NCBI GenBank assembly: GCA_903813345.2
Contig: CAIIXF020000003.1
Location: 21,094,931-21,158,930, forward strand
DNA: 64,000 nucleotides
From: Owenia fusiformis
Taxonomy: Eukaryota > Annelida > Polychaeta > Sabellida > Oweniidae
Direction of reading: 5' to 3'
In this document: positions 224 to 47,000 of the stretch, piece after piece
How positions within the stretch are numbered: position 1 is the first letter of the stretch
Layout: each line of letters starts with the position of its first letter
Position numbers and translations under genes: made by a program
Notes under the pieces: generated by a model
What the model was told of the DNA's origin: nothing
What the model saw: only the letters and a program-made list of their open reading frames with translations
Databases searched by the model: none

Positions 224-3216
<2,993 letters not shown>

Positions 3217-3439
3217 CTTGGTAAACAGTGAAGGAGTGGGAACTTTGATTCACGAAATTTTATACGATGTCGATGTTAGTGACATCTTTTCAAATGTAAA
3301 AGCTTAGTTAGTTTGTATATTTTTGTTGATTTTTCACCCAGTACCTCGGTCGCACACACATTACGCTTATAGTTTTTAGCAAAGCGTGGGTATAAAGTTG
3401 ACATTTACACTCGTGACTCTATTTTTATACTCATATATA

Positions 3440-12764: not shown

Positions 12765-15700
12765 TTAGAAGTGTTCCTTTGTACATCCGCTGAAATATAA
12801 AATACAACAAATACAAACGTGCTTAATACTGATATTTCTGCATTGGTTAATTGTAATATGGATTGGAAGGAACTTTAACTGTTGCACCACGTTTCAAAAG
12901 GTTTAACTTTTAACACGGGTCGGGCCTATTGTAGTTACTCCAGAGCTCAATCTCCAGAGTAATAAATGCAATACACGATAATAACACACCTGCATGTGGC
13001 ACGGCAATTCTCACTCATGAATTTGTGGAAGGAGGATCCCTTTTCGCAATATCCGTATCTGGCGTAGTTGAGGCAATAGCGTCCGTGTTTGTCATGGCAA
13101 GGTCCTAATGTAATAGTAAAATACATTAACTTTGCAGGGCCGTCAGATGGGGGGGGGTGCGATGGGTGCGACCGCACCCCCCTTTGTCACCCCCCCCAAA
13201 AAATGAAAAGAAAGTTTGAAAATTTTTTTTTGAAAAATATTTTTTTGTAATTTTTTTTCAATATACTCATACACTTTGAAAGTACCCAGAAAGCACCAAA
13301 TAGCATCTTAAAATTGTAAAATTTTCTAGGGGTATTGGCCACCCCTCACACCCCCCACAAAACAATGGAAAAGTTCTTTTATTTTAGTGTTTTGTCTCAG
13401 ACACTTTTACAGACACTTTCACAGACATCATCAAATAGCTCCTTGATACAGTTAGTGTTTCTGGGGGACTAACACTTGCTCTCCTCTTGCATCTTGCACT
13501 TGCATCCTCACACCACCTCCCCCTCTGGTGCCCCCCTTGACCCCCCCCCCCCCCCCAAAAAAAATTGGATAAAAGTTGTGATTTTCTCAAATTCTTTAAT
13601 TGACTCATACACTTTGAAAGTGCCCAGAAAGCACCAAATAGCGTCATAAAATTGTAAAATTTTCTAGGGGGAGTGGGTCACCCCTCATACCCCAAACAAA
13701 ACAATGGAAAAGTTCTGACTTCGTTTTATGTATTGTCTCATCCCCCCTTGACACCCCCCCCCCAAAAAAAAATTGAAAAAGAAATTAAGAATTTTCAAAT
13801 TTTGTATTGACTCATACACTTTGAGAGTGCCCAGAAAGCACCAAATAGCATCTTAAAATTGTAAAATTTTCTTGGGAAATAGGCACTTTTAGGCACAGAC
13901 ACTTTTAAAGTGCCCAGACTTCATCGAATAGCACCTTGATATAGTAAATGCTTCTGGGGACAGATATGGGGGACAAACACTTGCTCCCCCTCTGGCACAT
14001 CAACCCCACCTCCCCCTCTGGCACCCCTCCTTCCCCTTTGACACCCCCAAAATAAAAAAAATATGATTTTTTTCAATGTTTTTATTGACTATACACTTCA
14101 AAAGTGCACAGAAGCACCAAATATCATCTTTAAATTGTAAGATTTTCTAGGAGAGTAAGCCACTCGTCAAATCCCCACAAAACAAAAGAAAATATTCTGA
14201 ATTTCATGTATTGTCTCAGACATTTTTTAAGTGCCCTGACATCATCAAATAGCACCTTGATATGGTCAATGTTTCTGGGGGACAACCCCTTGCTCCCCCT
14301 CTGGCACCCCACCCCACTTCACTCTCTCATCCTTTTTGACACCCCCAAAAGAATTTGAAAAAAATTCACATTTTTCTTATTGACTCATACACTTTGAAAG
14401 TGCCCAGAATGCACCAAATAGCATCTCAAAACTGTAAAATTTCCTAGGGGGAGTGGTCCACTTCTCACACCCCCCACAAAACAATTGGAACGTTTTGAAG
14501 TTGCACTTGTTAATTCCAAACCGATATAGGGAGTAACCGACCCCCCCTCCTCTGACTTACGCGATTTGGTTTACGCGGCAAAAAAATTGACAATTTTATA
14601 TTCTCTTTAGTAAAAACCGCACCCCCCTTGGAGAAAAGTGTCTTACGGGCCTGCTTTGGGTCATAACAAAATCATCAAATCTATCTAAACAATTATGGAA
14701 CATAACCCATGAAAATATTTCATTTCTGTGGATGTCTCCTGGAAAACTGAAAGTTGAAGGACTGAAATTAAAATATTCGAACGTGTGCTTCGGCAGAAAA
14801 TTTGATTTTCACAGATTCAGTCAGTAAAGTTAAAGGAGCAACACGATTGTCCGTCGTATGGTCAGAAGGTAAAAATAAATGTTTGGATCAGTCAAATGTT
14901 CCTGAAGCTAAGCAACCTCAACACGCTGCATTAATCACCGAACTGAGTACACGAGACAAATATGACGACAAGAAGATGGATGCTAAAATCCATCTTAGTT
15001 ATATCCACTTTTGCTGGTGACATAATATACTTTACCCAGTTAACATGTCGGCAAGTATAATATTCCCATCTTCGACTTCAAACTTGATATATATAACACA
15101 AGTTGAAATTAGAGCAACTGAAACCTTGTGAATCAATATGATATTCCCATTTTCAAACATATTTGGACGCGTGCTGGTAAGTCGCATGCGTTGTCAAATG
15201 TGTACCGTTTGCTTTAAAATACATATTATATGCATGTATAGACTGTATAGTACTCACCTTTTGTGGGTGGAGGTGCGGTTGGGGCAACGTGTATTTTGTT
15301 ACGTCTGATCAGCTCTGTCCAGAGGCGGGCGATACCTGTAGATGTGGCTTCCTGAAACGTCAATAAATAGGCAATTCTGTGCGGTTCGATATAGATACCG
15401 AAGTTATCGGACTTTTCCTATTTTAACATAATATAAAATTCCAATTCCGAAAAGTCAAGGAAATGGCCATAATCAAAGAGAAAATAGATATCAAATTGTA
15501 CTCTGTAATTGTGTTCGAAATTGTGTAAAAAAGTGTGGTCTCACGATCTTGAAGCTAGAAACGTCGAATCGTCCTTGCTTAATTTGAAATATTAAAGGAT
15601 TTGATCGATCAAACAATAGATGTCACGTCTCTTCTATACTGGCCGTGTTAAAAGCGGTTATTTTTAAATATTATTCAAAATGGCAACGAGGTTTCTGTTA

Positions 15701-18625
15701 ATCATGTTGAAATCATTTTACAACCAAATTAAGAATAACAATGTACATGAAATCAATAGTGACTGAATGTTTCAGCAGTACCATTTGAGAAAATATTTGG
15801 ATATACTATTCCTTGTAGTGTAGAGGGGAATCTCTGTTCAATATATATCATCAGGCCCGTAGCCAGGGGGGTTCAAGGGGTTCGAGCGACCCCCCCCCCC
15901 CCCTGGCCAAAATTTCTTTCAAGATCATGCACCATTCTGAGCACTTTTTAAGTGATTTTGGCCACTTTTGGACCAAAATTGTCAAAAGTGAACCCTCCTG
16001 GAATCTTTCAAAAAGTGACCCCCTCCCCTCTTGGCAAAGCCTGGCTACGGGCCTGATCATAGATCATGCATACCGTCATATCTGCTCCTCTTGCTGTGAC
16101 TCTGATGCCAGTATCCATGTCCGTTACTATCACAGTTGTCTCGCCCTTTGGAGTGAAACGGATCAATCGTTCTTCGATGACCTCCTAAAACACAGAGACA
16201 ATAGTAACATTCAAGAACCTGGAACAGGTATAATGGGTGACAGAATTGCAATCAATGGCAATTAATTTTAAGATAATCTGTCCATTGTCAACTAAGTTAA
16301 AAATGTGAAAAAGACCAATAGCTAAAATTATTCTCAACTATTTTCATTTTTTCAAGAACTTGATATTTTCAAAAGCTTTCACTTTTTTCAAAACATTGCC
16401 TTGACCATGGCACGATGGTATAAGGTCGTTATGTGAACCTGTCGAGATGATATGAAGAATATCCCTCGGATGATATCAATATTTCCCTCTGTCACTGCGT
16501 CACCTTGGGAAATATTGATATCAATTCTGATATTCCCCGTACCAAATCCCTCTTGGTGAATAACTTCTTCATATTGACTTGAGCAATATGTGGAGAATAT
16601 TGCAGGCCTACATGTACATTGTACAAGTACTGGTCATTATCCGCCCTGGTCCAGGGCGAATAACGAGTTTGTACTTATTTTTCAATTGGTGATGATACTA
16701 ACATCATTTCAGCGGGCAACATAGTGAAATCTTGGCCCTCGGGAATATTGAACCCATAACCTTCAGTTCTGATGAGTGATGTACATTCATTATAAATATG
16801 TTTTAAATAGTTATCTAAAAAGTTGTGTTAATGCAAAAATAGGTGTTGAGAAAATAGCACGATTGTTCAAGACGTTTTACTAAATGCCTTGAGGGAAACT
16901 ATTGAATATGTGCGATGCAATAAAAAGTACATGACTGTTTTTTAAACATGATTCATTTTCTATTCAGTTCTAGGTGTTGCATAAAAAATCCATGAAAATT
17001 CAAAATCAATTGGTGGAACGGTCTTACTGGAAATAATTTTAGTTCGGATATTCAAAAACGGACACCTCAAAATATCCTCAGTATGCCCAAAATACCAGCA
17101 TTCATGAAAAATTGAAATGAATCAATGACACGATTTGGCTGAAAACTCGAAGAGAAGACTTTTAGCTCAAAATTTGAGAACGTAAAATCCAAAATGGCCA
17201 GCTTAAAATACCAAAACTCTAATTAGTTTGAGGTTTTAAACCAAGAAGCATCCCTGAAAACGTGAAATGAAAGAAAAAACGGTTTGGTTGGAAACTCGTA
17301 GAAAAGAATATTGCCTTTCTAGATAAAAAGGACGGAAAATCCAAAATGACCACTAAAAGATAATTTCGGGAAGCCTGCCGCTGACCGCAAACTGATAACA
17401 ATATAGCAATGGCGCGATGATAATATACATAGAAATATGATGCATACTTCAGAGCTTTCGAAATGCCTTTCAAATATAGCATCAGTAAGATCTCCAATGA
17501 CTCCAAGCAGGCCATTTCCGATATTTTTCATCACATCGCTGCCTTTAATCTTAGCAGCTCCAGATTTGATAGCGCCAAGAAGTGCTTTGCCGGTAAGTCC
17601 ACCAATTATAGCGAACCGCTTCTCTCTCTTGGGGGCACCCTGTACCGCCACCGCAAGTGCTACCACCACCAATAAGCCTTAAATATAATGAAAATAATCT
17701 CAATATAATGACAAAGATTTCCCCTTGTTGAATCCCCAAGCAAAATGTACATCATTTTATCAATATTATTGTGACGCCCTGAAGACATGGTTTCTAAATG
17801 CGGAATGTGGGCGCACTATATCCAAGTAAAATACTTCCATTAGACAATATTGCACAAAATAAGGTACATTTTGCTAGTGACAAAAATGTAGAAGTTTAAA
17901 CCAAATCTGCAAAGTCAAGTGCATACATCGGTGTGTTCGAAATGTCCTTTGAAGATGGCCCCGAGAATCTTATCGGCAATACCCATAACGACGTCTCCAA
18001 TGGCACTTGCTACCATAGCCCCGGTTATGATTGCACGTTTCTCACGCTTGGGTGAAGGAGCTGCACTTACAGCCACCACCAAGCAAACGACAATCGCTAG
18101 AATACCTAAAAGGCGTTGAACCATGTATACAATGTTAAAAGGGGCGTTGTTTGAATTCTGCCAAGTACTCCTAATCTGTCAACGAGTATTTTTCAAGAAC
18201 TTTTTCAATATGGCCAACCAATTCAAAATGGTTTAATTCAATTTTGAGCGTTCATATTGCTTACGAGTTGAGCTTTGATATTCTCTTAAAATAATATTTG
18301 TACCAAAGTCTTTTGATCTTTTGACTTGTAAATTCAAAACCATTGGGCCAATGAATTGAAGAAAAATTTGGTTTATTTCGAATAAGAATTACGGATACCA
18401 CACATTTATTGAATTTTCTTCCAGCAGCCTATATGGAAACCCTTGAAGAGTGATGGTATGAATACATTTGCTTCTTATAAATCACATTATTTGATTATTT
18501 TCTATTAAAAAGGTCTATTAATTAAATACATGAACGAACAAAAATATTTCAGATAGGCTACTTTAAAATCATTAATTGCGACAATATTATGGATTAATTT
18601 TCCATTACTTACCAAAGAATTTCAT
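12765..18625 (-). CDS. Secreted ShKT-domain precursor with two alternative second exons
   Basis: Coding exons on the minus strand: 1 at 18613-18625 (MKFF plus one base), 2A at 17927-18105 or 2B at 17448-17677, 3 at 16074-16184, 4 at 15258-15351, 5 at 12990-13104, 6 at 12765-12789. Every border is GT-AG. Both exon 2 versions run phase 1 to phase 0 and fit exons 1 and 3, giving 178 aa (A) or 195 aa (B). Order in the protein: signal peptide; short propeptide ending KREKR (a furin-type site); a Gly/Ala-rich, amphipathic-looking segment; a linker with strand-like TTVIVTDMDTGIRV; Pro-rich APTAPPPTK; then a C-terminal ShKT domain with six cysteines spaced C-x6-C and ending CRATCSGC. Exon 6 supplies the last cysteine. 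ShKT domains occur in ion-channel toxins, metalloproteases and antimicrobial proteins. I do not recognise the whole architecture; a secreted defence or toxin-like peptide is inference. Confidence 0.82.
13136..14660. repeat. Tandem repeat block inside the ShKT intron, 200-340 bp units
   Basis: Five copies of the word family AAGCACCAAATAGCATCTTA at about 13294, 13632, 13836, 14112 and 14412, each followed by AAATTGTAAAATTTTCTAGG. Between them lie CACTTTGAAAGTGCCCAGAA and runs of C. The block starts near CAGGGCCGTCAGA and ends near TTACGGGCCTG, so the array may sit inside a transposable element with those short inverted ends. It fills most of the intron between exons 5 and 4. Open frames across it are repeat sequence. 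Confidence 0.8.
15852..16055. mobile_element. 204-bp MITE with CAGGCCCGTAGCC inverted ends
   Basis: Starts CAGGCCCGTAGCCAGG and ends CCTGGCTACGGGCCTG, and is flanked by ATCAT on both sides (15847-15851 and 16056-16060), a possible 5-bp target duplication. No coding capacity. Its right end lies only 18 bp from the splice donor of ShKT exon 3 (exon edge at 16074). Confidence 0.88.
16400..16760. repeat. Palindrome-containing repeat in the ShKT intron
   Basis: GATATCAATATTTCCC (about 16472-16487) is inverted as GGGAAATATTGATATC (about 16507-16522). Related GAATAT words surround it. Probably a decayed short inverted-repeat element. Confidence 0.5.
16970..17350. repeat. Three diverged tandem units of about 115-125 bp
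   Basis: Related blocks near 16980-17095, 17100-17215 and 17225-17350. Each carries a CGTGAAA or CATGAAAA word, a GGTTTGG/GATTTGG..GAAACTCG stretch and AAAATCCAAAATGGCC/GACC near its end. Similar words occur near 19060-19210 and 24530-24670, so this is a dispersed family. It sits just downstream of exon 2B. Confidence 0.55.
17448..17677 (-). CDS. ShKT gene, alternative exon 2B
   Basis: The acceptor is preceded by a T-rich tract and the exon ends at GAA before GTATGC. It encodes the rest of a signal peptide (LLVVVALAVAVQGA), then PKREKR, then a 56-residue segment beginning FAIIGGLTGKALLGAI and ending ERHFESSE. It is 17 residues longer than exon 2A. Shared features with 2A: KREKR, (A/F)-xII-x-G, GLLGVIGDLTDAIF versus IADKILGAIF, HFE near the end, and the identical GTATGC donor. 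No separate first exon of the MKFFG type was found between 17678 and 17926. That supports sharing exon 1 with exon 2A rather than being an independent gene. If both exon 2s were joined, 2B would be read out of frame and hit TAG at its sixth codon. Confidence 0.8.
17927..18105 (-). CDS. ShKT gene, alternative exon 2A
   Basis: Encodes ILAIVVCLVVAVSAA (signal peptide continuing from MKFFG), then PSPKREKR, then a 36-residue segment starting AIITGAMVASAIGDVVMGIA and ending GHFEHTD before a GTATGC donor. After cleavage at KREKR the N-terminus would be a hydrophobic, Gly/Ala-rich stretch with few charges. That pattern is typical of membrane-inserting helices, though only inferred here. Confidence 0.82.
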
Positions 18626-20040
18626 GGTGAATTCTGGACAGAAATGATGACAACGATTTGTGATTGGCATTATATATACGGCCTTGAGATAAAGGAGTGT
18701 GGTGTGATAAACATCATCTATAATCTTCGTGATGATAACACATTAGATACAAGATAATTGTACAATATTTTATTCCATTTGACCTATTGATTTTAAAAGT
18801 CCGTGCGATCAAATTGGCCCATATGATATACACATCGAGGAGTAATACTGTATACAAATATTTCAACTAAAAATTCCTCGAGCACTTCGGGGAATAGCAC
18901 TTGCGCAAGTTGCATGTGTTCACAGAAAATAGTATGCAATTTATTATTCACTGTAAGAATCCTCAATCTATCCTGTAAAATTAAAATGGTTACAAAAGTG
19001 TAATAATTGTTACAGCTCTAACAGCGCTATTAGAGTCTGACATTTTTACGGACATTTTGAATTGGTTGGCCATTTTGAAAGATTTCTTGAAAATTCCTTT
19101 GACAGATTTAAAAGAACCGAATCTGGTATCTTAGTTTTTAAAGATAACCCTTTTATGAAAACGACGGTGTTAAGACTTGAATTTGAGACAGGCGGACAAA
19201 CGGAAGACGGACAGACGAAGGGATGGACGGCTTCTATTTATTCCTACTCGAATTTCCTTCGTTGTGACAATTAATGATCTAATTCAACCCAAATGTAATA
19301 GCTTATCACAACGCCGAACGCTACATGCATATATCTTATCAAATAGTGCAGATACTTTGAGCTGGATATCGAAAATAAACAAATGTTAAATATCTTAATT
19401 TGCTTCTTTAAATTCTTAACCCCTTCTGAAACCGTATAGCACATAGCAATAAATGAAAGAAAAAATATACTACATTATAACTGAAATGACTTTTTAAAAG
19501 TTGCTTCTTATCTATATTCAATCTTTAATAAAAAAAAAACATGTCACCGACTTGAAACAGTTACAAACTACAACTACAGTATGCAAATCTCTTAAAATCC
19601 CAGAGATTTCAAAATCAAAACTTTATGGAAAATTCTCTAATGAGATGGATAAACATACACTGTACATGTACAAATGTTTTGTTGATTCAGTTTATTTATA
19701 AAAAATATAATCAATTAATCAAATTAGGTTGCATATATACACATTTACATTAAATACATGTATTTACATCAGCTAGATAAAATTTATCCCTATTATTCGG
19801 AATACTGTGTTGGAAAACATATACAGCACGTTTTTAATCTACATGTTTGTAATTCATGCAGTTTTCTAAGCAATTTTCATGTGAACTTCCCTGAACTTTT
19901 TTGAAAAGTCAGCCCCTTTTGACAAAAGCTTGCTACGGGCCTGCAATCAAAGATGCATTGACCTGCACAAACCTGATTATTTTTTACTGAAACTTAAATT
20001 TACTTAATTACTTAAACTTAACCAAAATAATTTCTTCAGG
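18626..20040. other. Intergenic stretch between ShKT and DHRS4 genes
   Basis: No gene seen beyond the ShKT promoter. Around 19040-19270 is a dispersed repeat containing CAGGCGGACAAACGGAAGAC. Around 19870-19942 is a partial copy of the CAGGCCCGTAGC element (ends TTGCTACGGGCCTGC). Small reading frames here match nothing known. Confidence 0.55.
18671..18678 (-). promoter_or_regulatory. TATA box of the ShKT gene
   Basis: TATATATA lies 46-53 bp upstream of the ATG at 18625 on the minus strand. Initiation about 25-30 bp downstream would leave a 5' UTR of roughly 20 nt. A clear TATA box suits a strongly or inducibly expressed secreted product, which is inference. Confidence 0.6.
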
Positions 20041-23000
20041 TTAAAGTCTGGACTGCATTCCTCCCGTGATTGCTACTGTCTCTCCCGTGATGTATTGTCC
20101 ATCTTTAGAAACAAGGAAGGACACAGTCCCTGCACAGTCTTCTGGGACACCAAACCTGCCTGATGGGATTGTCTTCAAGGCCTCCTCTGCTATCTCTGGA
20201 GTCTTCCATAACTGGAAAGTTGTATTTTTATGTTGAAACAAGTTGGATTTTTGTGTTGAAGCAATTTTTTATATCTTAATGTAATTTAGATATCATACTT
20301 CCGAAAGTTGGATTTTTATGTTGAAAGAAAACAGACATGAGCATGTTTTTATGTCTTATATAATTTAAAGATCATACTTCTAGGCCATTTTCCAAAAAAA
20401 CTTAAAATATTTACAAAATGACCTCTTTAGATTGCATTAATAATGTAAAATGAGACTGCAGGTTGATACAAATACGAGAGTCAACTAAGAAGGAGGTCTC
20501 TGATTGTCTTGTTAGTCCAAATACAAGTAAAATATGAAGCTGATGCTTAACTTATTTCAGTTTACATTCATATTTATTATATCATGGTATTCCAAACGCT
20601 AGCAATGCATTGCATAGTTAAAAATAAAAACTATTGAAAATATAGGATATTGCACTGTATAAAATACTCACTGTTTCACTAAATCCAGTTTTGATGACCC
20701 CAGGGGCTATTGCATTTACATTGATGTTCATTCCAGCAAGTTGTGGTACCATGGCTTTAGTCAAACCCAGTAGGGCTGTCTTGCTTACAGAGTATGCTCC
20801 TAATAGCTGAAACATATAATATAAGACAATGTGGTTTTTGTGATCCCATATGTATCATGACATGTAATAATTAGAGGTTATGTCACTATCGTGGCATATA
20901 TGCCCGAGGTCTCAGTGATATATGGCCCGACCTTGGGAGGGACATTGATCTCTGAGAACCGAGGGCATATGTGCCACGATAGTGACATAAACGATTTATA
21001 ACATACCTATGATGATGTAGACTGGTTAGAGAGTACCGTTCTTCTTATAGAATTGACAAACAAATGGTTTGAAAATGATTGGAATGAGTTTAGAAAAATT
21101 GTTCGCGCAGTTTTATCTTCGATTGATTGGTTATGACGTCAGCGCCTTGACCAATCAGAAAGTTAGCGGGCCCGGGCTTTTGAAAACTTATATTGGCCCG
21201 CTGTTTTGTGTACACTTTGCACTATACATCATCATGGGTATGTTATAATAGACTATAATGTTAACTCAATGACCTAATGTACATGTATGGTTTTACTGTT
21301 ATTTTAGTCTGTTTCATAAATGAATACAAGGCATTAACATGCAAAATGCAAACACCTGCCACTTGTTACAGATGCTGAATGCTGTTACAGACACCAACCA
21401 CCAAACACCATCCATAAAAAAAGTTGGAGAATATAGCAATATAGCAATATGTCACAGTGACATAACGAACATGCTATTTAGTCAACCTCATAGTTTCAAT
21501 GCTCTATACTGTTGTTCCATCACATAGACATCTAAGAGAGTTTACATTAAGAAATCTAAAGGATGGGGAAGGGAGTGGATTGCTCATCTTACACCTTAAA
21601 CCACTGTCACCCTCACCGACCATCTATCCTGTATGGCTAGTAGAAGACAAAGGGACACAAGAAAGAGAAGGCAGGGGTTTCATTAGAATTTCACTGAACA
21701 GGCCGAATAAATGAAAACAACAGGCAAAATCAATTGGAAATCATAAATTCAACATGGAAAAGTTGAAAAGTCCCTAAAAACAACAGGAGATTTTGTGAAA
21801 ACAACTAGTGAAAAACACCTGTTGCCTGCTGCTAATGAAAATCCTGAGAAGGGATGTGGACTCCCACAATAGCTCACATTGCTCTTTGGAATATCAAATA
21901 TCACAGAAAACTCAAGCTGTGTCAGTGAAATGGTTATTAAATGGAATTTTCAAACTTACAAATTTAGAATTCTTTGTGGTACTGAAAATTCAATAGAATG
22001 GGGTATAAAGACAAATTGCCATGGAGAAGTGCATACAACATGTCTTTAAATGATCATATCTTACCTCAAATGGTGCAAATCCTGCAATGGAGGTGACAAA
22101 CACAATAGATCCTCCCCTGTAAGAAACAATCTAATGTTAACATTCTCAATACAATTCTGTTATTAAAATGCAACAACTGTGAAACTGGCAATCCAATAAG
22201 GTTAGGCAATTCTAGGGGTATGTGAAAAAGAATATGTTGTAATTACTTAATGAGTTGAGTACCTATGTAGTATGTATAGCCTGATGGTTCAAAGAAACAA
22301 TAGGAAATTGGAGAAATAGAATTTTATTAGATGCAATTTTCGAACCTTTACTAGTAGAAAGTACTATAGAACACCCTTTTTTAAAATGAGAATAGATCAA
22401 ATAGTGAGAATATATAGTTCCACTATTTTATGAATTTGATTTGACCAAAATTTATGCCAGGCATAAATTTTGTTCAAATCTAATTCTGAAAAAGTAGAAA
22501 ACATATATTCTCACTTTTTGATCTATTCTCAAAACAAAAACCAGGCTGTTATAGTATTGGTACACAATATGCGTCTTCAGCTGGTTACTGTCCAAACATT
22601 GCTATTAAATCATTCCAATATAAAATAAAAAAAATTTGAAGAACAAGTATTTGTTTTTTATTAGATCTTTCCAAAACTAATGTATCTGCAACCAAGACAA
22701 GAAAATCAACCGATCCGAACACCCATGGGACCAGCCAAAAGCGTTCAAATTGGCAGGTGTTAAAATTCCGAGGATTTTGTTGGTCGGGGTGGGGGATTTT
22801 CATTGTTCAGTGCACTATATTGAACACTTACTAAGTCAGAAAACAATACATGTTGTTGATGAGTTAATTCTACAATAGGCCTATAGCCTATATGCTATGT
22901 TTTATTTATATTTTGAACAATTTCATCATTTTAGTAAAAATAACTCTTATATTTTGGCAAAAACTTTGTAATACACTGTAAAAGTATATGATAGTCTCGT

Positions 23001-26000
23001 ACGAAATCTTATGCTTATCAAATGGCTTATCCCATATTATGGTTACTGGTATATAGCACTGCTTTACTTTTGCTTGAAAAAGTCCTTCATTGTTGTTTGT
23101 TTCTTGGCACTTTTAGCATTAGCAATATTGGAGTAGATATCTTCAAGTAAAAATAATTTTTCATGAGTGTTCATTCGAGATGATGTATAATCCTTCAAAA
23201 TATCAAGGGCATTCAGGATGTCAGATGTATGCGAATATTACGAAGTTGGATTTTTTTCTCCTTCTCGTGATATAATCGTGTCTGCAAATGGCGTCTGTGT
23301 TGTCTTTGTGATTATAAAACATTTACTGATTGAATCTTAGCTATCATAACAGACCCATGCATATAAAACAGTTAAGAGCTGTTCATAATCCAAATCAAAA
23401 ACATGCAGTTAATTTACAATAAGGATAAACCAATTATCTACCAGACTCTCACCTTTCTCTTAATCCAAATCAAAAACATCCAGGTAATTTCCAATAATGA
23501 TAAATCAATTATCTTCTTGATTCACACCTTTCTCTTAATCCAAAAATAAAACATTCAGTTCTTTCTAAATGGAAAAACCAATTAACTCCTGTATTCACAC
23601 CTTTCCAAAACATCCTGTTGTTTTCCACAAATTAGGGATGTCACTGAGACTAAATAAGTTAATTAGGACAATTGGTTCTTTGATTGCATTTGTATAAATG
23701 TAAAGATAAATAACAACTATAACATTGACTCAATATGTGGCTTTAATTGAAATGTCCAGACATTTGATTTCTGATAAAAATGTTCAGATTAGACAGGTCA
23801 CTTTTTCAAATCTGGTTGTTCACTGTTCAAATTAGGAGGTGATCAGATTTCCAGGTTTTTTTAACATGGGAGTCAATGGAAGGAAAAAATGGGACCGAAA
23901 AAAAGTGTTCAAATTGGAAGGTGTTCGGATTAGCCAGGTGTTCAGATATACAGGTTTTACTGTAATCAAATCATTTTTAATGGTTGCACAATAATGGTTT
24001 GAATTGAGGGCTTTCAAGGTCATTTTTTATAACGGGTGACTGCATCAAGTGATATGACCAATTTTTGGAAATTACCGTTTCATATTACTTATTCTGCTGA
24101 TAACTCATTTCATCCTATAATACAATTACATCAAAATAATACAAATAAATATATCAAATACTTTACCCTCTCTTCTCTATATGTGGCGCAGCTTCCTTTG
24201 CGAAGAAAAATGCAGCTTTTACGTTAATGTCAAATATTTTGTCCCAGGCTTGTTCTGAGGTAGACTGAAAATATCATTTGAATAAAAATTTGAATTATTT
24301 TATTTTGCAAAATGTTGATGATCACTCATTTGGAGTGGTTTCTTCAAATTTAATTTGAAAATCTTGTCATTAATGATTAACTTCAAGTTGTGTCACTTAA
24401 ATAATATATAACATCTGTAAATCAATCATGTTCCTGATTTGGTCCTATATAAACAGTTACAAACACAGATACTGTACAGTTACATCAATTTTTTTTATCA
24501 TTTTTAGGTGTACCAAATTGAAATCATTTACCCAGAATGCCCAAAAACTAATCAGTTCTAAACTTTCATATGTAGAAATATCCCTGAAAATTTCAGATGA
24601 ATCCCTCAAATCGTTTGCCCGGAAAACTGTCGACAGGCAAACTGATCACAATAGCACTAAGGGTGCAATAAAAAACAAAGTTGAAAATAAAATAATTTTT
24701 AACTGAAAAGGATTAACATGGACTTACATCTAGTATAGGCCCAAATATTGGGTTTGCAGCTGCGTTTGATACAAGAATGTCCAATCCCCCATATTGCTTA
24801 ACAGTCTGAAAATAAAATCATGTTACATTTATTGACATGTGTGTATACAAGTAATTGTACATGCATGCATAACTAACTATACATAAGCCAAACAATTAGC
24901 ATTTGTGACTTTCTTCTAACACTAGACAACAGCAACGCCAAAGCGTAGCAAATCCCATCGAACAGCCATGGCTGGCATTTTTACAAACAAAGTATAAAGC
25001 AAAATCGGCAGCCATTTTTCAAAATGACCACCTTCTACCACAAGTACCATTAGACAGTGTGCCATGCTTATAGTACTCACATACCAAATATGAACAGAAT
25101 CGCTCCACTATTTTCGAGTTATAGTAAAATAGTATTAAATGGTGGCTATGAACAAAATCGCTTCATTACTTTTCGAGTTGTAGTAAAATACATTAAAACG
25201 ATGGCCATTTTGAAAAATTTTGCAGCCTTCTACCAAAAGTGTCATTAGACAGTGTGCCATGCTTATAGTATTGCCATACCAAATATGAATAAAATCGCTT
25301 TACTACTTTTCGAGTTACAGCAAAAATTGTAAAATAGCGAGTAACTTCGTTCAATGGGATAAATAATACACACTGTGTTGTATAAAAATTCATTTGACTT
25401 TCATCCCCTCCTACATCCTAACATCTTACCCTGTCCTGTACAACTTACTTCTTCTATTAAACTGACACGGTCCTCTGACTTTCCAGCATGACAGACCATT
25501 CCACTGACTTCAAGGTTCTCTGATCTTAGTTCAGCAAGTGCTCTGTCAACATTCTTTTGCTTTCTACTTGAGATCATGACTTTTGCACCATCCTGACCTA
25601 GACGTCGTGCAATAGCATAACCAATGCTGAAATGATAATTTTTTAATATTTAAAGGGACATTCCTTGCAATTGCCCTTGATATGTCAACATTCTCTAGAT
25701 TCCATGAACATGAAAACTGATTCTGAATATAGCACATGTATGAAAAGTTTGTGAACAGGAATAGTTATTGGTTACTGTGACAATGGACAAAAGAAAGTCC
25801 ATGCTGTGGTCAACATATGCGCATCACAAGATCACACAAGGCATTAACATGCACTTTGCATTCGTTTGATTTTGCTCTAAAAGAGAGCTTCGTCTTTACT
25901 CTTTCAGTTTACCATAAATCTCTGAACTTACAGAGCCATTCAGAGTTTGTCATTGAAATGACGCATTAAGCTTGTGTTCCTTCCTGCTCACTGATTGGTT

Positions 26001-34800: not shown

Positions 34801-37800
34801 TAATATGATGCATTCTATACTGCTTTAGGTAACTGAGGAGCCAACTGATAGGTGGAGGAATATACAGGGGCATAATGCACTGGTAAGTAATTTAAAATGT
34901 CTTTAAAAATTTAAAAACATTCTCTCCATTCCCAAAAAAATAATAAATAAATGTTTTAAAGTTACTGTACTTTTTTGTGGATGGTGTTCGGCAGCGGTGT
35001 TCTGGGTACGGCAACCGTTTCAATTTCTTACATCTTCCGTCAACCGGTGGTGACATTATGTCATGTTAAATGCCTTGTTTTATTCATGCCTTAAATCTTA
35101 TTCATATATTTCAAATCCAGTGCGCTTGGTATTTCACACAAATGTATAGACTAAAAAATCTAACTAGTGTAAAATTAACAAAATGCAAGCACCAGTTCAG
35201 TTTTGGGACACCCTGTATGTTACATAACTCCACATTTTAGGCTCTGATGTATGAGGACCCCGCACGGTGGAGCCTGACATTCCAGACATATGTTCAGCTG
35301 ACCATGTTACAGTCTCATATGGCTCCACAGAAGAAACCTATCAAAATGATGGAGCGATCCATACATTCTGCTAAACAATGCTTTGTAGAGAATTTACACA
35401 ATAAGTAAGAGAATATTCTGAACTTGTCCGTCTATAAAGGGCAGGAACGCAATACCAATGTCTTTCTACAGCAGTGGTTTCACTAGCAGCAGGCAACAGG
35501 CGATTTTCACTGGTTGTTTTCACAAAATTGCCTGTTGTTTTAAGGGACTTTTCATCTTTTCCATAATTTTTCCTGTTGTTTTCATTTATTTATAATAGCC
35601 TGTTGAAAAATTCTAGTGAAACCCCTGAACATGAAAATATAACATAATTTTGGGGAGTGTATGAGAAAACAGTATTGATCCTTCCTTTAGTCTGCAGTAC
35701 ATGAAACAGTGTCATTTTAATGAAATATTTTATCAAAGATATACTGGAATGATCCCTTCTATTCTCATATTTTTTCAAACAAGAAGACAGATTACAAAAG
35801 CCAAGACTTTCAACCAAATTAGCTTTTGATAATATATTGTATATAAAATATGAAATTGGGAAATTAACTTTTAAGTTCAGTTTAGTTCTAAAGCTTTTGA
35901 AACATCTAACAATCGCCTACAAACAATTTACAAAAACATACATTTTTTTCCAGTGGCACAATGCCTGACATTGAGTATATTGTATTGAGTGAGTGGTATG
36001 ATTACATCTGTGCACATGACAAGGTGGATGTTGACATTATTGTTTACCTCAAGACCAGGCCAGAAGTTGTCCTGGAACGCATCAAGAAAAGACATAGAAA
36101 TGAAGAACAAACTATTCCACTGGTAAGTTCTAAGGCTAGCCAACATGTTTCAAATGTTGTATCAAGCTTCTGTAATGGATCTCAGTCTCAACCCATCTTA
36201 TCAGTAGGTTAGGGGTTAGTGGGGGGGGGGGGGGGCATAAACTTGGTGCAAGAAAAGCTTGGCTTGCTGATTTTATAGAACTTACATGCATGTTGAGAAC
36301 AAGAAAGTAGCAGCTCTCAGAAAGTGTGAAGGTTTAAGCTCTTCAACATTTAAAATGTCACTCGACTTTTTTGTGATTATGAGTCAAAGAAAGCATTCTT
36401 GAGTTTCAAATTGACTTCTGTGGTAACTTGAAACCATCTTCTAATCTATTCCACTTACCTTTTATTGTTTCTCCAAATATATTCTTTGAAAATCGGATTT
36501 TAAGGGTGTTAATCAGGGCAATTCTGTGCCATTTTAATCAAAAATCTTGTTGCTACCTAGAAACGAGCAATTGTGATCTTGTTGTTACCTAGGAATGAGA
36601 AACTGTGATGTCACGTCACACTCATGTGAATTCTGGAATCACATGGCAGCCATTTTGGAAATTTCAAAAAAGTTCCCAATTAAAAAGGCTAAATGCTGTT
36701 TACAAATTGGAAACTATTGCAGAATCAACTAAAGGTTTGTTAAATAATTAGGATAAGGCTTCAAAATTATGCACATGACAATATACTAGTATGACTACTA
36801 AATGCAGGCAGGGACTTTTAATTGCCAAAAAGTCGAGTGACATTTTAGATGTCGAAAATCTTAGTTTTTATTGCTTTCTCTTCACTGTAGATTTCTGCTG
36901 CAAAATTTCGATCATCTCATTTTCCCTTTTGATTGTTAAATCAGGAATGGAGTTACATAGTACATCGATCAGTTCTATAGACCTGTAATATACAACAGTA
37001 ATACTCATTATACATACAGTAATATGGAGTATTAAGTTCAGTACAGTAATACCTGTCCAATCCAAACACCTGGGACTGATCAAATTAAAGTGTTCATATT
37101 AGCAGGTGTTCTTATCTTCAAGTTTTATAAACATGTAAGTCAATGGAACATAACTAATCTGGGACCAAGAAAAAATGTCCACACTGAGAGGTGTTAAGAG
37201 AGTTTTTGCTGTATAAACTCTTAACGCAGAACTACTTTGTTCCATTGTATAATTTTTGACTGCAGGAATACCTTGAGCAGCTCCATAAGCTTCATGAAGA
37301 CTGGCTGGGGCACCAACCCAATGTATTGGTGAGTCTTGTTTGCTTGATTGGTTGTTTGTTTACTTGTTCTTTTGTTTGATTAGTTTTTGTTTGGTGAAGC
37401 ATGCAGTTAAAGCTATGATCTGCCATACAGAAATTAGCATTTTCTATTTTCCAATTTTTTATTGTTATTACATGGTTCTATGTAAGTTCATCTCTCTGGT
37501 TAATATATCAGAAACAAGTCAAATTCTTTACTTCAGAGAATATTTTTAATTTATTGAGACTTTCGACTAATATCCCTTAGTCTTTTTCAAAATATAACAG
37601 CATGTATACATTTATGTGACGTCATAAACAGACAATGGAAAATTTAATTATGTAACAAATGACCTAGTAACCTAAAAAATAACAACAACAAAAAACATAG
37701 ATACGAAAAAACGAATGACCTAATAATAACCTTAAGATAAATATATCATCGTTATGGTAACAATTAAACTCAAATATTACTATTGCATACTTTGCTATAC

Positions 37801-40695
37801 CATTCTTAATTTACAATATTTTATGATACAAATTGTCCAACTGATACCCATTATCTCTGTTCATTTTAGGTTGCATTGTTTTAATATGAATTGCTTCCTT
37901 AACCCTACGTTTAAGATCATGACTCTCATTATCAATGATTTTTACATTGTTCCAGTTTATATTATGATCATATTCCATGGAATGTTCAATAACCGCAGAA
38001 GCAAGACCTCCAGTCGACAGTAATGTGGGTCTACGATGTTCTCTGATTCTAGTAACTAGTTCCTGCTTTGTTTCACCTACATAAGTGGCAATACAGTCTT
38101 TACAATCAATTTTGTAAATTACACCGGACTTCTTTTGATCATTAGTTTTGTCCTTTAAATGCACCAACTGTTTCTTGATAGTATTCTGCGATGAGAAACA
38201 TACTCGGACACGATGCCTTTTAAAAATACGCCGTAACTGGTTGGAAATACTAGGGATATACGGAAGAACTGCAGTACACCTTATATCGTCATCATTTCTT
38301 GTTCTGTTTACATTATTTGTCGCATGTCTTTCACCTTCTTTAATCAGCCATTCCTGGTACCCACACTCCTTTAATGATCGGCAAACCAGTTCCTTTTCTT
38401 TCTTTAGATCTTCCTCTTTAGTTACCAATGTTTCTGCCCTCCTAAAGAGGGATTTGACAACTCCTCTTTTAGTATCAAGAGAATGATTTGATTGGAAATG
38501 CAAATACTGATTTGTGTGCGTTGGTTTGCGGTAAACACTAAATGACAAAGATCCGTCTTGTTCAATCTGGGACATCGTATCCAAAAATGGACCGTCAAGT
38601 ATTGGTGAACTTTTGAAATTTTGTCTTCAGACCACTTACTTTATTCGTGATAACCAATTTTATATTCAAAAAGAAGGTGCAGCAATGGGATCGCCCCTAT
38701 CTCCGATCATAGCGAATCTGTTCATGGAAAATCTTGAAGAAAAGGCCATTGAAAATGCTCCAATTCCTCCAAAATTTTGGGGTCGATTTGTTGACGACAC
38801 GTTTGTGATCATAAAGAGGGATGATGAACAATCGTTTAGTGAACATTTGAATAAACAACACGAGAGAATAAAATTCACCAAGGAAGTATGTTCCGCCGAT
38901 AAACGTCTCCCATTTTTGGATACGATGTCCCAGATTGAACAAGACGGATCTTTGTCATTTAGTGTTTACCGCAAACCAACGCACACAAATCAGTATTTGC
39001 ATTTCCAATCAAATCATTCTCTTGATACTAAAAGAGGAGTTGTCAAATCCCTCTTTAGGAGGGCAGAAACATTGGTAACTAAAGAGGAAGATCTAAAGAA
39101 AGAAAAGGAACTGGTTTGCCGATCATTAAAGGAGTGTGGGTACCCGGAATGGCTGATTAAAGAAGGTGAAAGACATGCGACAAATAATGTAAACAGAACA
39201 AGAAATGATGACGATATAAGGTGTACTGCAGTTCTTCCGTATATCCCTAGTATTTCCAACCAGTTACGGCGTATTTTTAAAAGGCATCGTGTCCGAGTAT
39301 GTTTCTCATCGCAGAATACTATCAAGAAACAGTTGGTGCATTTAAAGGACAAAACTAATGATCAAAAGAAGTCCGGTGTAATTTACAAAATTGATTGTAA
39401 AGACTGTATTGCCACTTATGTAGGTGAAACAAAGCGGGAACTAGTTACTAGAATGAGAGAACATCGTAGACCCACATTACTGTCGACTGGAGGTCTTGCT
39501 TCTGCGGTTATTGAACATTCCATGGAATATGATCATAATATAAACTGGAACAATGTAAAAATCATTGATAATGAGAGTCATGATCTTAAACGTAGGGTTA
39601 AGGAAGCAATTCATATTAAAACAATGCAACCTAAAATGAACAGAGATAATGGGTATCAGTTGGACAATTTGTATCATAAAATATTGTAAATTAAGAATGG
39701 TATAGCAAAGTATGCAATAGTAATATTTGAGTTTAATTGTTACCATAACGATGATATATTTATCTTAAGGTTATTATTAGGTCATTCGTTTTTTCGTATC
39801 TATGTTTTTTGTTGTTGTTATTTTTTAGGTTACTAGGTCATTTGTTACATAATTAAATTTTCCATTGTCTGTTTATGACGTCACATAAATGTATACATGC
39901 TGTTATATTTTGAAAAAGACTAAGGGATATTAGTCGAAAGTCTCAATAAATTAAAAATATTCTCTGAAGTAAAGAATTTGACTTGTTTCTGATGTTATTA
40001 CATGTTTTTACTGGCTCAATTATAAGATGTTATAAATAGATGTATGATCAAATGTCAAGTTTAGATTTCAAATGCAAATGAAAACTTCAAAATATTTGAT
40101 TATCACATTTTTAGAAAATGAGAATATAAGTATTTAAGAAAATGAGAATATAAATATTGAAAGGAATACAAATTGTACCTGATTGTTGCATTCGTCCCTT
40201 TAAGATTGTTGGCTTAAATTACAAAATAATATAGTATTAAGAACGTTCAGTATGAAAAAATACTAAATATTGGTGACCGTCTTGGTTTACAACATATAAG
40301 CTGATTAGGTACTGTGGGTCGGGGTATTTTTAGAAAATAGACATGACAGGGAGAGATGTTGTGTCAAAAAGATTTTTTGAAAAAATGCTTTAACTATACA
40401 TTCTATAAATTACAATTGTTAAGTTCTCATAGTTTAATAACAATTCTTGACATTTCAGACATTGGATGCAAATTGTGATCTTATTGAAATGAAGACAGAA
40501 ATAGACAAGCACATAAAAACAATACTTTGCGGTCTAGTCACTTCCAAACAAAGTCACTCATCATCTGTGGACAGTGAGCACCTTCTGCCTGTCAGAAATG
40601 GTTTCAAACCCCATACAGCATTAACAAATGATGGCAATCTTAAGTCTTCAGCTCATTTAAAAGCCACAACAGGAGTTCTGAAGCAAGGGGATTGA
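31875..40695 (+). CDS. TK2: TK2/dNK-like deoxynucleoside kinase, 7 exons
   Basis: Exons 31875-31992, 33843-33958, 34829-34882, 35241-35404, 35954-36122, 37266-37328 and 40459-40695 join in phase to 306 aa. The N-terminus ([17 protein letters not shown]) is basic and Ser/Thr-rich, as expected of a mitochondrial import signal. The P-loop GNIGSGKT is at residues 56-63. W-N ([11 protein letters not shown]), [13 protein letters not shown] and ERS (134-136) are the substrate and catalytic landmarks of the dNK family. [11 protein letters not shown] near 193-203 is the lid. [14 protein letters not shown] is the conserved C-terminal helix. The enzyme phosphorylates deoxynucleosides (dT, dC) for mitochondrial or salvage dNTP supply. 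The last exon adds about 60 residues beyond the usual end, rich in Ser, Lys and His; human TK2 is 265 aa. Introns 1 and 6 are swollen by mobile elements. Confidence 0.95.
32146..33708. mobile_element. 1.56 kb element with subterminal ATGGTCCGAAT tandem repeats
   Basis: Starts GGAGGACACACCATTGGTCC and ends GGACCAATGGTGTGTCCTCC, a perfect inverted repeat of about 24 bp. Inside each end is an array of degenerate 11-12 bp units of the type CCAAATCTCAATGAT or CAATGGTCTGAAT (32165-32330 and 33450-33640). No coding region. It is interrupted by another element at 32391-33333. It lies in TK2 intron 1. Confidence 0.85.
32391..33333. mobile_element. 943-bp foldback element with 10-bp target duplication, nested
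   Basis: Starts GGGTTTGTAGAAAAAACCGG and ends CCGGTTTTTTCTACAAACCC. It is flanked by CTCCAAATCC directly on both sides (32381-32390 and 33334-33343). The inverted arms are about 270 bp, including GGTACCCGGTACCCGG and TTTGAATATACAAAAATGTA. Long arms plus a 9-10 bp target duplication fit a Mutator-like (MULE) non-autonomous element. A 143-residue minus-strand frame inside it (32712-33143) resembles no protein I know. Confidence 0.85.
34976..35075. repeat. TGTCACCAC dispersed element, copy 3
   Basis: Contains TTTTTTGTGGATGGTGTTCGG and the end GGTGGTGACAT. Same family as 10382, 44155 and 51530. Confidence 0.6.
35470..35630. repeat. Dispersed element rich in CCTGTTGTTTT, copy 2
   Basis: Inverted-orientation relative of 21674-21840: GCAGCAGGCAACAGGCGATT, TTTCACTGGTTGTTTTCACA, TTAAGGGACTTTTCATCTTT. 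Confidence 0.7.
37045..37215. repeat. CAGGTTTTACTGT family element, another copy
   Basis: Contains CAGTAATACCTGTCCAATCC, TTCATATTAGCAGGTGTTCT and AACATGTAAGTCAATGGAAC, ending near TTTTGCTGTATAA. Lies in TK2 intron 5. Confidence 0.6.
37508..38592 (-). mobile_element. Inverted, 5'-truncated partial copy of the Penelope-like element
   Basis: Nearly identical, in reverse, to 38911-39992. Its open frame (37811-38584, minus) covers only the C-terminal part of the protein, from [10 protein letters not shown]-equivalent sequence to the GIY-YIG endonuclease ([19 protein letters not shown]). The few differences from the plus copy (for example QEWL/PEWL and KQEL/KREL) indicate a recent origin. Confidence 0.9.
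38598..39992 (+). mobile_element. Penelope-like retroelement (RT plus GIY-YIG endonuclease), 5'-truncated
   Basis: The open frame 38613-39689 (358 aa) starts inside the reverse transcriptase. Visible are [18 protein letters not shown], the catalytic FVDDTFVI and LPFLDT, then a linker and a C-terminal GIY-YIG endonuclease ([27 protein letters not shown]). That pairing defines Penelope-like elements, which copy through RNA and are neither LTR elements nor classical LINEs. The N-terminal RT part is absent. A reversed partial copy lies head to head at 37508-38592, a layout often seen in this group. The element sits in the sense direction in TK2 intron 6. The tail beyond the stop (to about 39992) is also present in the reversed copy, so both share one 3' end. 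Confidence 0.93.
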
Positions 40696-44020: not shown

Positions 44021-47000
44021 TTAATTGTTTCTCATGACCTCCTCGATCCAATCGTAGAACGCGGAGACGTTCACCACAATACTGGGCCTTGTTCCTGCTG
44101 GCCAATATCCCCAAGATTGTAAACCTACAAACTCAACTTTCACGTGTTTGTTTTGTCACCACCACAATGGTGACACATTGTTATGGTTGCCAACGTTTTT
44201 GTGGACGGTGTTCGGCGGTTGGTGTTCGGTATCTGTAACAAATGGTAGGTCGTGACATATTACAAGCAAGAAGCAATTTACCCCATTAGATACTTCGTGG
44301 TACACCTTTTATTAATTCTTATTAATTGAATTCAGATATTTGAGACTTGAGCTCCTCTAGGGTTACCCTGAGTCTCAATGTTAAATGACATTTTACAGGC
44401 CAGAACAGATATCGAATGCATGCAATTTTGTTTGCAATAATGTTATTACAAATAAGCCTACCTAATAGTTGGAAACGTCCGTCGGCAGGTCGCCTAAAGA
44501 AATATGGACCCCCTGAATCGCCCTAAAAGGCAAAGCACAGTGCATCATCATACATCTATGGACATCTATCTGTGTGTTAACAAGTGTAAACAGTCTCAAC
44601 GTTCACCGTGAACGTTGGAATGAAATATTGCCCAACGTTCCTAAAGCGGCCTTAATGTTAAACGATCAAAATTGAAACCTTGGTAAATTGAACTTTGGCG
44701 CTATTGAACTATTCGGCCGGTAGACTGGGCAAAAGTTTAGTTTTGGCTGCTATTTAATTTGGCGGATTGATCCATCAGGAAATGCGGATAACGGGGGGCT
44801 ACGCTAGTACAAAAAGTTTTCAAAAAATTGGCGGAGACTTAATTTGGCGGTTTTTATCAATCCACCAAATTAGAATGGCCGTCAAGCAATTTTACAGTAT
44901 ATAGAAATATTTACATCTCCAGAGTCCTTGAGATCTCCTTGTACACAATACTCCCTATCCCTGAATAAAGGTCGAGGTGCAATGTCATCTTCACAAGGGT
45001 CTTGGGCGATTACTTGAAGGTCTGTGTACAGCAGCTGCTCGGGCGAGGGCGCGTCTAAAAAGTTTTGAAAATGTTGCCCTGAATTGATTGATACAAGTAT
45101 ATACATGTATACGATTAATGTAGTTTCCGCAACATCACAACAATTTTCAAAAGGTTTGAAGAGGGTGTACGTTTTTACACAGAGAGCAAAGTAAAAGTAG
45201 CTCTCGTATCTACGCCATCTTATAAAATGTTGTGAATGAGCACATAAAGTACTGTTTTTTGCATTGAAATGAAATATATTTTAATAGTCCTATGAAATTC
45301 CTTCTCAGTCTCGCGGAGAATCGCGGATGGCGATGTCAATAAAGTCACGAAACATTATCTAAGCTTATCTTGTGATCGGCCCATGCTGTACTTACTTCTT
45401 TCCTCATTTCCCCACCCTGCAAGTATCATTGTTTGACCAACGTACGTGTCATTGTCATTTCTAGGTGCAAGGCATATAGGACGCAGGTCTTCGTCGAATG
45501 TTAAGTTCTGAGGGAATTTGAACATAACGATATCATTCTGAAACAAGGAATAAGCACTTAACTCATCTGATTCAAAACCAAAAAATTTAAAATGATATAG
45601 TGACTAGAATTAATAGACCGAGACTACTAAATTCTTTTAAATTTATTTATAAATGAACATGTTCTGATACAAGACAAGATTTGGGCTGATTATTAGTACA
45701 TTACATTACACTGGCCCACGCCACCCACCCCCCCCCCCCAAATGTAGGGCCTCAAAAATGGGCCTTTTTGGCCAAATTATAAAAATAGGCCTTAAATTTT
45801 CAAAATTATTTTCATTATACATTATTGTATAGAAAAAAAGTTGTTCCATTAGAGGCACGTGTATAGTAAAAATGGCAATTATTCGTGAGCGTTATGTCCC
45901 ACCTCATATGTATTAGAATCGTAATCGGGGTGTCTGACGATGACCTCTGGTGTGTACTCCACTCCATCGTTGCTAGGTAGTCTCCAGTGATTTTTAACTA
46001 CTATCCTATAGTCGGTGACTGGATCAGCCCTATACGAACCATATAGATATATTTTGCAAATACTCAAAATGCAAAATTCATAATTACATTACCAAATGGG
46101 TCTATGCCGGGCAACGGAGTATCGCGTTTTAATAACGGCTTCCAATCCACCTTGATGTGCGATAAATTGATTTATTGACTTTGTGTTCACGGTTACGTTG
46201 TGAAAAACATCGCTAGCGTAAAGTCTCATTTAGAGCCAACATCTGTATTTTACGCGTATGTACAATGTCTTGCACTAAAAGCCAATATTCGGTAACTTAC
46301 GCGTCTGTACAATGTCTTGCACTAAGAGCCAATATATGTTACTTACGCGTCTGTACAATGTTTTGCAATGAGAACCAATATATGTAACTTACGCGTCTGT
46401 ACAATGTCTTGCACTGAGAGCTAATATATGTTACTTACGCGTATGTATGCCTTGCACTGAGACCCAATATCTGTAAATTACGCGTATGTACAAGGTCTTG
46501 TACCTGGAGCCCATCTGTGTAACTACATGTAACGCGTATATGTACAATGTCTTGCACTGAGAGCCAATACTGTATATGTTACTTACGCGTATGTACAATG
46601 CCTTGCGATGAGACCCAATATCTGCAACTTATGCGTATGTACACGGTCTTGTACCTGGAGCTTATCTGTGTAACTTACGCGTATACGTACAAAGTCTTGC
46701 ACTGAAAGCCAATATATGTTACTTAAGCGTACGTACAAGGTCTTGTACCCAAAGCCCATCTGTGTAACTTACGCGTATATGTACAATGTCTTGCATCGAG
46801 AGCCAATATATGTAACTTACGCGTATGTACAATGCCTTGCACTGAGAGCCCATCTATTGTTAATGAGGACAGCTCCACAATTTTGGTCCCACACGTTACC
46901 ATTGAACCAATCCATCATCACCTAATTGAAGTACATGTATGACATTTATAGTGTTGTAATGCATTTGATCTACATTTGATCTACGGCAACCATGCGGCGG

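Follow-up and report, generated by a model that had tools for sequence, protein, structure and literature searches.

The window analysed here, a 64-kb stretch of the genome of the polychaete annelid Owenia fusiformis, carries a gene on its minus strand (18625-12765) for a predicted secreted ShKT precursor. Exon letters, phases and open reading frames were reproduced from the window sequence. The coding part of exon 1 lies at 18613-18670; from the ATG at 18625 it contributes 13 coding nucleotides (MKFFG) and ends in phase 1. Two second exons follow on the same strand, 2A (17927-18105, 179 nt) and 2B (17448-17677, 230 nt), each encoding the rest of the signal peptide, a KREKR site and a hydrophobic segment, of 36 residues in 2A (AIITG...EHTD) and 56 in 2B (FAIIG...ESSE), and each running from phase 1 to phase 0. 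The shared exons, all minus strand, are a strand-rich exon at 16074-16184 (111 nt, EVIEERLIRF...ADMT), an exon for a helix and Pro-rich linker at 15258-15351 (94 nt, EATSTG...PPPTK), an exon encoding the bulk of the ShKT domain at 12990-13104 (115 nt) and the last coding exon at 12765-12789 (25 nt), which holds the end of the domain (SGC), TKEHF and the stop codon.

The original prediction, made from the letters alone, had exon 1 joined to either 2A or 2B and then to the shared exons, and letters, phases and translations all agree with this arrangement. Splices with a single exon 2 are both stop-free, giving 178 residues with 2A and 195 with 2B, in which the front part between KREKR and the ShKT domain measures 105 or 125 residues, respectively. 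When the full 2A is joined to 2B, the frame reads AYWWW and then stops at the sixth codon of 2B, as predicted, and omission of both exons also breaks the frame. The lengths given for the segments behind KREKR were likewise correct; the Gly plus Ala content is 31% in the 2A segment and 29% in the 2B segment.

Just upstream of the gene, on the minus strand, exon pieces at 20041-25649 resemble, by eye, a short-chain dehydrogenase/reductase gene. A leucine-rich-repeat protein exon lies at 2200-3249 on the minus strand (Pfam LRR_8, 4.6e-22) and a deoxynucleoside kinase exon at 35910-36212 on the plus strand (Pfam dNK, 5.3e-13). At 38535-39689 (plus strand), a reverse-transcriptase open reading frame (Pfam RVT_1, 1.6e-10) is followed by a stretch that looks by eye like GIY-YIG; it has a near-identical partner at 37811-38626 on the minus strand, and identical 95-residue reading frames flank both sides (37736-38023, plus; 39477-39764, minus). 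The pair looks like a Penelope-like element in inverted arrangement. A Trypsin-family exon lies at 49359-50476 on the plus strand (Pfam Trypsin, 4.2e-8 for 49564-49905), and a PSPEQLLYTD stretch is common to 50132-50473 (plus) and 44885-45280 (minus), which have no Pfam match at 0.01. The pieces at 49359-50476 (plus) and 44882-45280 (minus) are perhaps serine-protease paralogues on opposite strands.

The C-terminal domain is ShKT by Pfam. In the 2A form, residues 134-173 match Pfam ShK (PF01549) at 26.5 bits against a curated cut-off of 20.9 (9.8e-06); the match covers positions 1-37 of the 37 in the profile and includes six Cys. Together with the signal-like start and the KREKR site, this supports the predicted precursor layout. 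Other Pfam hits, to YhhN (0.009), T4SS_pilin and DUF3551 on the 2A form and to DUF3551 on the 2B form, fall below their cut-offs and were taken as chance.

In a search of 5.8 billion proteins, the only matches were two deposited proteins, P0001 and P0002, each in a cluster with a single member sequence. Both are from Owenia fusiformis; the expectation of a mollusc was wrong. P0002 (193 residues) is the 2A form lengthened by 15 residues, its start being an ATG at 18670, and P0001 (232 residues, 5'-partial) runs through 2A as far as 17983/17982, continues in frame with 2B and then with the shared exons; both are letter-exact to the window. P0002 contains the joins of exon 1 to 2A and of 2A to 16184, and P0001 the join of 2B to 16184. 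Thus, the two predicted junctions into the shared exons are each present in one model, and neither model places 2A and 2B in separate genes or lacks a join to 16184, in line with the claim of one gene. A direct join of exon 1 to 2B is in neither model. The Owenia annotation was built from mapped RNA-seq, curated junctions, assembled transcripts, Augustus and PASA, and 31,678 of its 31,903 annotated transcripts have RNA-seq support, as described in PMC9977687; the two models probably derive from it.

Where translation starts is less fixed than the original prediction, with its single start at 18625, had assumed. An exact match to TATATATA, a possible TATA box, lies at 18671-18678 on the minus strand; directly behind it is the in-frame ATG at 18670 that begins P0002 (MPITNRCHHFCPEFTMKFFG). 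Transcription starts about 30 bases downstream of a TATA box. If TATATATA directs such a start, the message would therefore begin below 18670, leaving translation to start with MKFFG at 18625. Between 19400 and 17690, four stretches lead from an ATG to a phase-1 donor scoring at least 4, with starts at 18670, 18625, 18343 and 18124. No candidate first exon of this kind was found between 2A and 2B, which agrees with the earlier statement that no private first exon for 2B is visible. In intron 1, the stretch 18343-18265 (donor 5.8) might act as a first exon for 2A or 2B, although its start is not signal-like by eye.

The start at 18124 belongs to an in-frame upstream extension of 2A (18106-18124, minus strand; MVQRLLGILAIVV..., MVQRLLG...), a possible but weak alternative first exon. 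It raises the possibility of two promoters, with 2A acting as a first exon in its own right and 2B served by exon 1 or by a private exon within intron 1. We consider this very improbable. In its favour are an in-frame ATG that precedes residue I of 2A by seven codons and is followed by a signal-like stretch, and the presence of the 18343-18265 stretch within intron 1, but a comparable in-frame ATG occurs in 6,873 of 25,360 sampled frames (27%), exon 1 is joined to 2A in P0002, and P0001 begins at the 2A acceptor and not at 18124. The first residue of P0001, a Gly, requires one base ahead of that acceptor, which can come from the last G of exon 1 or from the genomic G at 18106; judged by these letters, the beginning of P0001 is more in keeping with a transcript whose exon 1 was clipped than with separate initiation at 18124.

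Sequence comparison shows 2A and 2B to be tandem duplicates that have diverged. With 2A as the query, tblastn against the 64-kb window returned 2B at 2.3e-7, the best match in the reversed window being 1.2, and the whole protein as query returned the same 2A/2B match at 4.9e-6. Identity between the two copies is about 33% across the exon, KREKR and HFE being retained, and 73% over 40 nt spanning their 3' ends and donors. When both strands were scanned for a hydrophobic run and a furin-type site behind a splice acceptor, three matches emerged, two overlapping reads of 2A and one of 2B; as the pattern was modelled on 2A and 2B themselves, it serves as a check of uniqueness, not as an independent test. 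Neither sequence match nor pattern scan revealed a third copy of exon 2 within the 64-kb window.

Could 2B be a decaying duplicate, rarely spliced, with the 2A form alone as the working gene? A complete deposited model exists for the 2A form only, and the splice sites of 2B (acceptor 5.7, donor 4.2) score much like those of 2A (6.0 and 4.0), all of them being modest; these and all other splice scores given here come from a generic matrix. Against decay, 2B has stayed open over 230 nt while retaining KREKR and HFE at about 33% identity, and P0001 includes it, joined to 16184. Among 18,218 sampled stretches, 355 (1.9%) were open in frame over 228 nt and 730 (4.0%) over 177 nt. We regard decay of 2B as unlikely.

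The original prediction had further held that the frame enforces mutual exclusion of 2A and 2B. Homologous neighbouring exons, equal phases and a frame broken by joint inclusion are all found here, the last for the full 2A donor only. Strict enforcement is not confirmed, because a phase-1 donor inside 2A (ATGG/GTATTG, 17982-17983, minus strand) is used by P0001 for an in-frame join to 2B. Of the two models, P0002 carries 2A alone, and P0001 carries part of 2A and all of 2B. The exon 1 donor (TTG/GTAAGT) scores 8.3. The full 2A donor, at 4.0, ranks fourth among the 16 GT listed in or just behind the exon; the best, at 18070 (6.0), and that at 18076 (4.85) are frame-breaking, and the GT at 18045, in phase 1 with a score of 4.9, exceeds the full donor and, like 17982, would preserve the frame when joined to 2B.

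These donors bear on a different use of 2B, namely as an optional in-frame cassette that enters the message only together with truncated 2A, through the internal phase-1 donor. The product would have two KREKR sites and an internal second hydrophobic stretch, LLVVVALAVAVQGAP, and would perhaps be membrane-held or a precursor of two peptides. Such a cassette matches P0001, letter-exact from the window when spliced in frame, and P0001 is the only 2B-containing form that the protein searches returned; they yielded no model with 2B alone. The internal donor is, however, weak: its score of 1.7 is reached by 27% of the 3,563 GT on the minus strand, against 11% for the 4.0 of the full donor. P0001 is moreover 5'-partial, and it may be a compromise of the gene predictor, which could have chosen the in-frame donor if made to accommodate 2A and 2B together. 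On balance we think the cassette improbable, about as much so as decay of 2B. Less probable still is a splice switch with three states, 2A alone, 2B alone, or truncated 2A with 2B. Under such a switch, the first two would be secreted two-part proteins with different hydrophobic fronts, and the tandem form, with its two cleavage sites and a hydrophobic stretch inside it, would therefore either stay in the membrane or give off an additional short peptide; the phase chosen at the 2A donor would determine whether a dead message or the tandem form results.

We therefore return to the reading that we prefer and to which we give about an even chance: one gene with a tandem-duplicated exon 2, in which an alternatively spliced hydrophobic front is set on a shared ShKT tail. 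Competing RNA structure between introns offers at most a weak lead as to how a copy might be chosen. The 2A-2B intron (17678-17926) and the intron behind 2B (16185-17447), both read on the minus strand, pair at -114.2, better than all 60 shuffles and all 40 random window pieces; this pair was one of three intron pairs tested, and its margin over the best random piece (-113.2) is 1 kcal/mol. Pairing of intron 1 with the other two introns was ordinary, being equalled or bettered by 45 of 60 and 19 of 60 shuffles. Local 60-nt duplexes reach -31.5, a figure that stands without a control. The pairing could loop out 2B. A 46-nt inverted repeat (18185-18230 and 19053-19098) has one arm upstream of the proposed start; if that start is right, the arm would be outside the transcript and the repeat could play no part in its splicing.

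What kind of protein would the gene encode? The two hydrophobic segments have net charges (K and R minus D and E) of -2 in 2A and 0 in 2B, the shared middle part +1 and the ShKT part +3. Most helical antimicrobial peptides are cationic, unlike the 2A and 2B segments. The best 18-residue hydrophobic moment was matched by 22 of 1,000 shuffles for 2A, a modest moment, and by 100 of 1,000 for 2B, not clearly above shuffles; an amphipathic helical antimicrobial peptide was accordingly rejected, and the membrane-inserting N-terminus suggested earlier finds little in these charges and moments to recommend it. In the structural model of P0002, strands are predicted at residues 86-89, 95-100 and 107-112 (pLDDT blocks 34, 62, 71 and 62 over residues 81-120) and a helix at residues 115-132. 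Residues 91-130, with blocks of 62 to 71, are modelled with moderate confidence and most of the remainder with low confidence, the mean pLDDT being 44.4 for the whole of P0002 and 42.9 for P0001. In the ShKT domain, a Lys-Phe pair (HKF) places a Lys six residues before the fourth Cys, which may, by spacing and not by alignment, be the position of the Lys-Tyr dyad of ShK-type potassium channel blockers. According to PMC6409789, the dyad alone may not suffice, and other residues may serve.

A call for related precursors in other invertebrates brought none beyond the two Owenia models. The whole 2B form (E of 1, 1,587 candidates), residues 16-130 of P0002 (E of 10, 84 candidates) and a profile of both forms (E of 10, 7,627 candidates) each returned P0001 and P0002 only, in a protein search that depends on shared five-residue words and similar length and can miss distant relatives. 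Among solved structures, the 2B form had no sequence match at an E of 1, and the ShKT piece at an E of 10 had one chance-level match (E of 3.3) and no ShK chain. The gene is best read as encoding a secreted precursor with a ShKT domain, seen to date in Owenia alone.

In layout, and not in homology, the closest comparison is with the big defensins, such as oyster Cg-BigDef1 and horseshoe crab Tt-BigDef. These have a signal peptide, a short pro part ending in RXKR, a hydrophobic N-terminal domain and a six-Cys C-terminal domain on a separate exon, and their front is described as conferring activity at high salt and assembling into nets that trap bacteria (PMC6805989, PMC7203481, PMC3182236). The Owenia protein likewise has, behind an RXKR-type site (KREKR), segments made up mostly of hydrophobic and Gly/Ala residues, and a six-Cys tail encoded apart from them. 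Its tail, however, is ShKT by Pfam and not beta-defensin-like, it has an additional strand-helix-Pro linker, and its N-terminal exon is present in two copies. No big defensin was among the protein database search matches, and the beta-alpha-alpha-beta fold of the big defensin front can be compared only with models of mean pLDDT 44 and 43. We rejected identity as a big defensin on account of the ShK C-terminal domain; the protein may nonetheless work like one. An anti-lipopolysaccharide factor was also rejected, as the shared exons 16184-16074 and 15351-15258 contain no Cys and the disulfide-closed loop of these factors is impossible in the strand part.

Among ShKT proteins, which include channel blockers and, in aurelin, an antimicrobial member (PMC10608444, PMC6409789), the predicted Owenia product resembles aurelin and other secreted single-ShKT peptides in being a small secreted ShKT protein. 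Unlike aurelin, which has 40 residues, it would carry a long switchable front between KREKR and the domain. As for the exons, those of Dscam and srp that are mutually exclusive are homologous neighbours, believed to have arisen by tandem duplication, of which one is included (PMC6071210). Exons 2A and 2B are similarly adjacent and homologous; unlike the Dscam and srp exons, they differ in length (179 and 230 nt), and P0001 carries parts of both copies via an internal donor. Splice variation of venom and antimicrobial precursors has been reported in lacewing venom and in scorpions (PMC12758981, PMC12737323). Each element is known separately: exclusive exons arisen by duplication, secreted proteins with a ShKT domain, and precursors made of a hydrophobic and a Cys-rich part. 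Their combination, a splice-swapped hydrophobic front on a ShKT tail, was not found among the titles and abstract starts returned by searches of the open-licence literature, and the passages considered from PMC3182236, PMC7203481 and PMC6805989 describe no front-domain splice swap for big defensins.

Taken together, the preferred reading suggests the following sequence of events. An exon with the signal-peptide core, KREKR and a hydrophobic Gly/Ala-rich segment would have been duplicated in tandem, and splicing would join one copy, 2A or 2B, to the common strand-helix-linker part and the C-terminal ShKT domain, which for 2B presumes direct use of exon 1. A transcript with both full copies would be truncated, because 2A and 2B run from phase 1 to phase 0 with lengths that are not multiples of three, and would presumably be degraded by nonsense-mediated decay; the internal 2A donor would offer a minor route that avoids truncation and yields a tandem precursor. 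Removal of the signal peptide and furin cleavage would then give two secreted mature proteins with the same tail and hydrophobic fronts of 36 or 56 residues. Stage and adult-tissue RNA-seq exist for Owenia fusiformis (PMC9977687).

Defence at the surface or in the coelom is a plausible role by analogy with big defensins, and a reasonable guess given the channel blockers and the antimicrobial known among ShKT peptides; a function as antimicrobial or toxin is accordingly put forward here as inference. Should both forms be made, one gene would produce two secreted proteins with the same Cys-rich tail and a swapped hydrophobic front, in effect a natural experiment on the role of the front domain. 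Owenia fusiformis belongs to an early-branching family, and in this annelid diversity of a defence type would then be generated by splicing instead of by gene copies.
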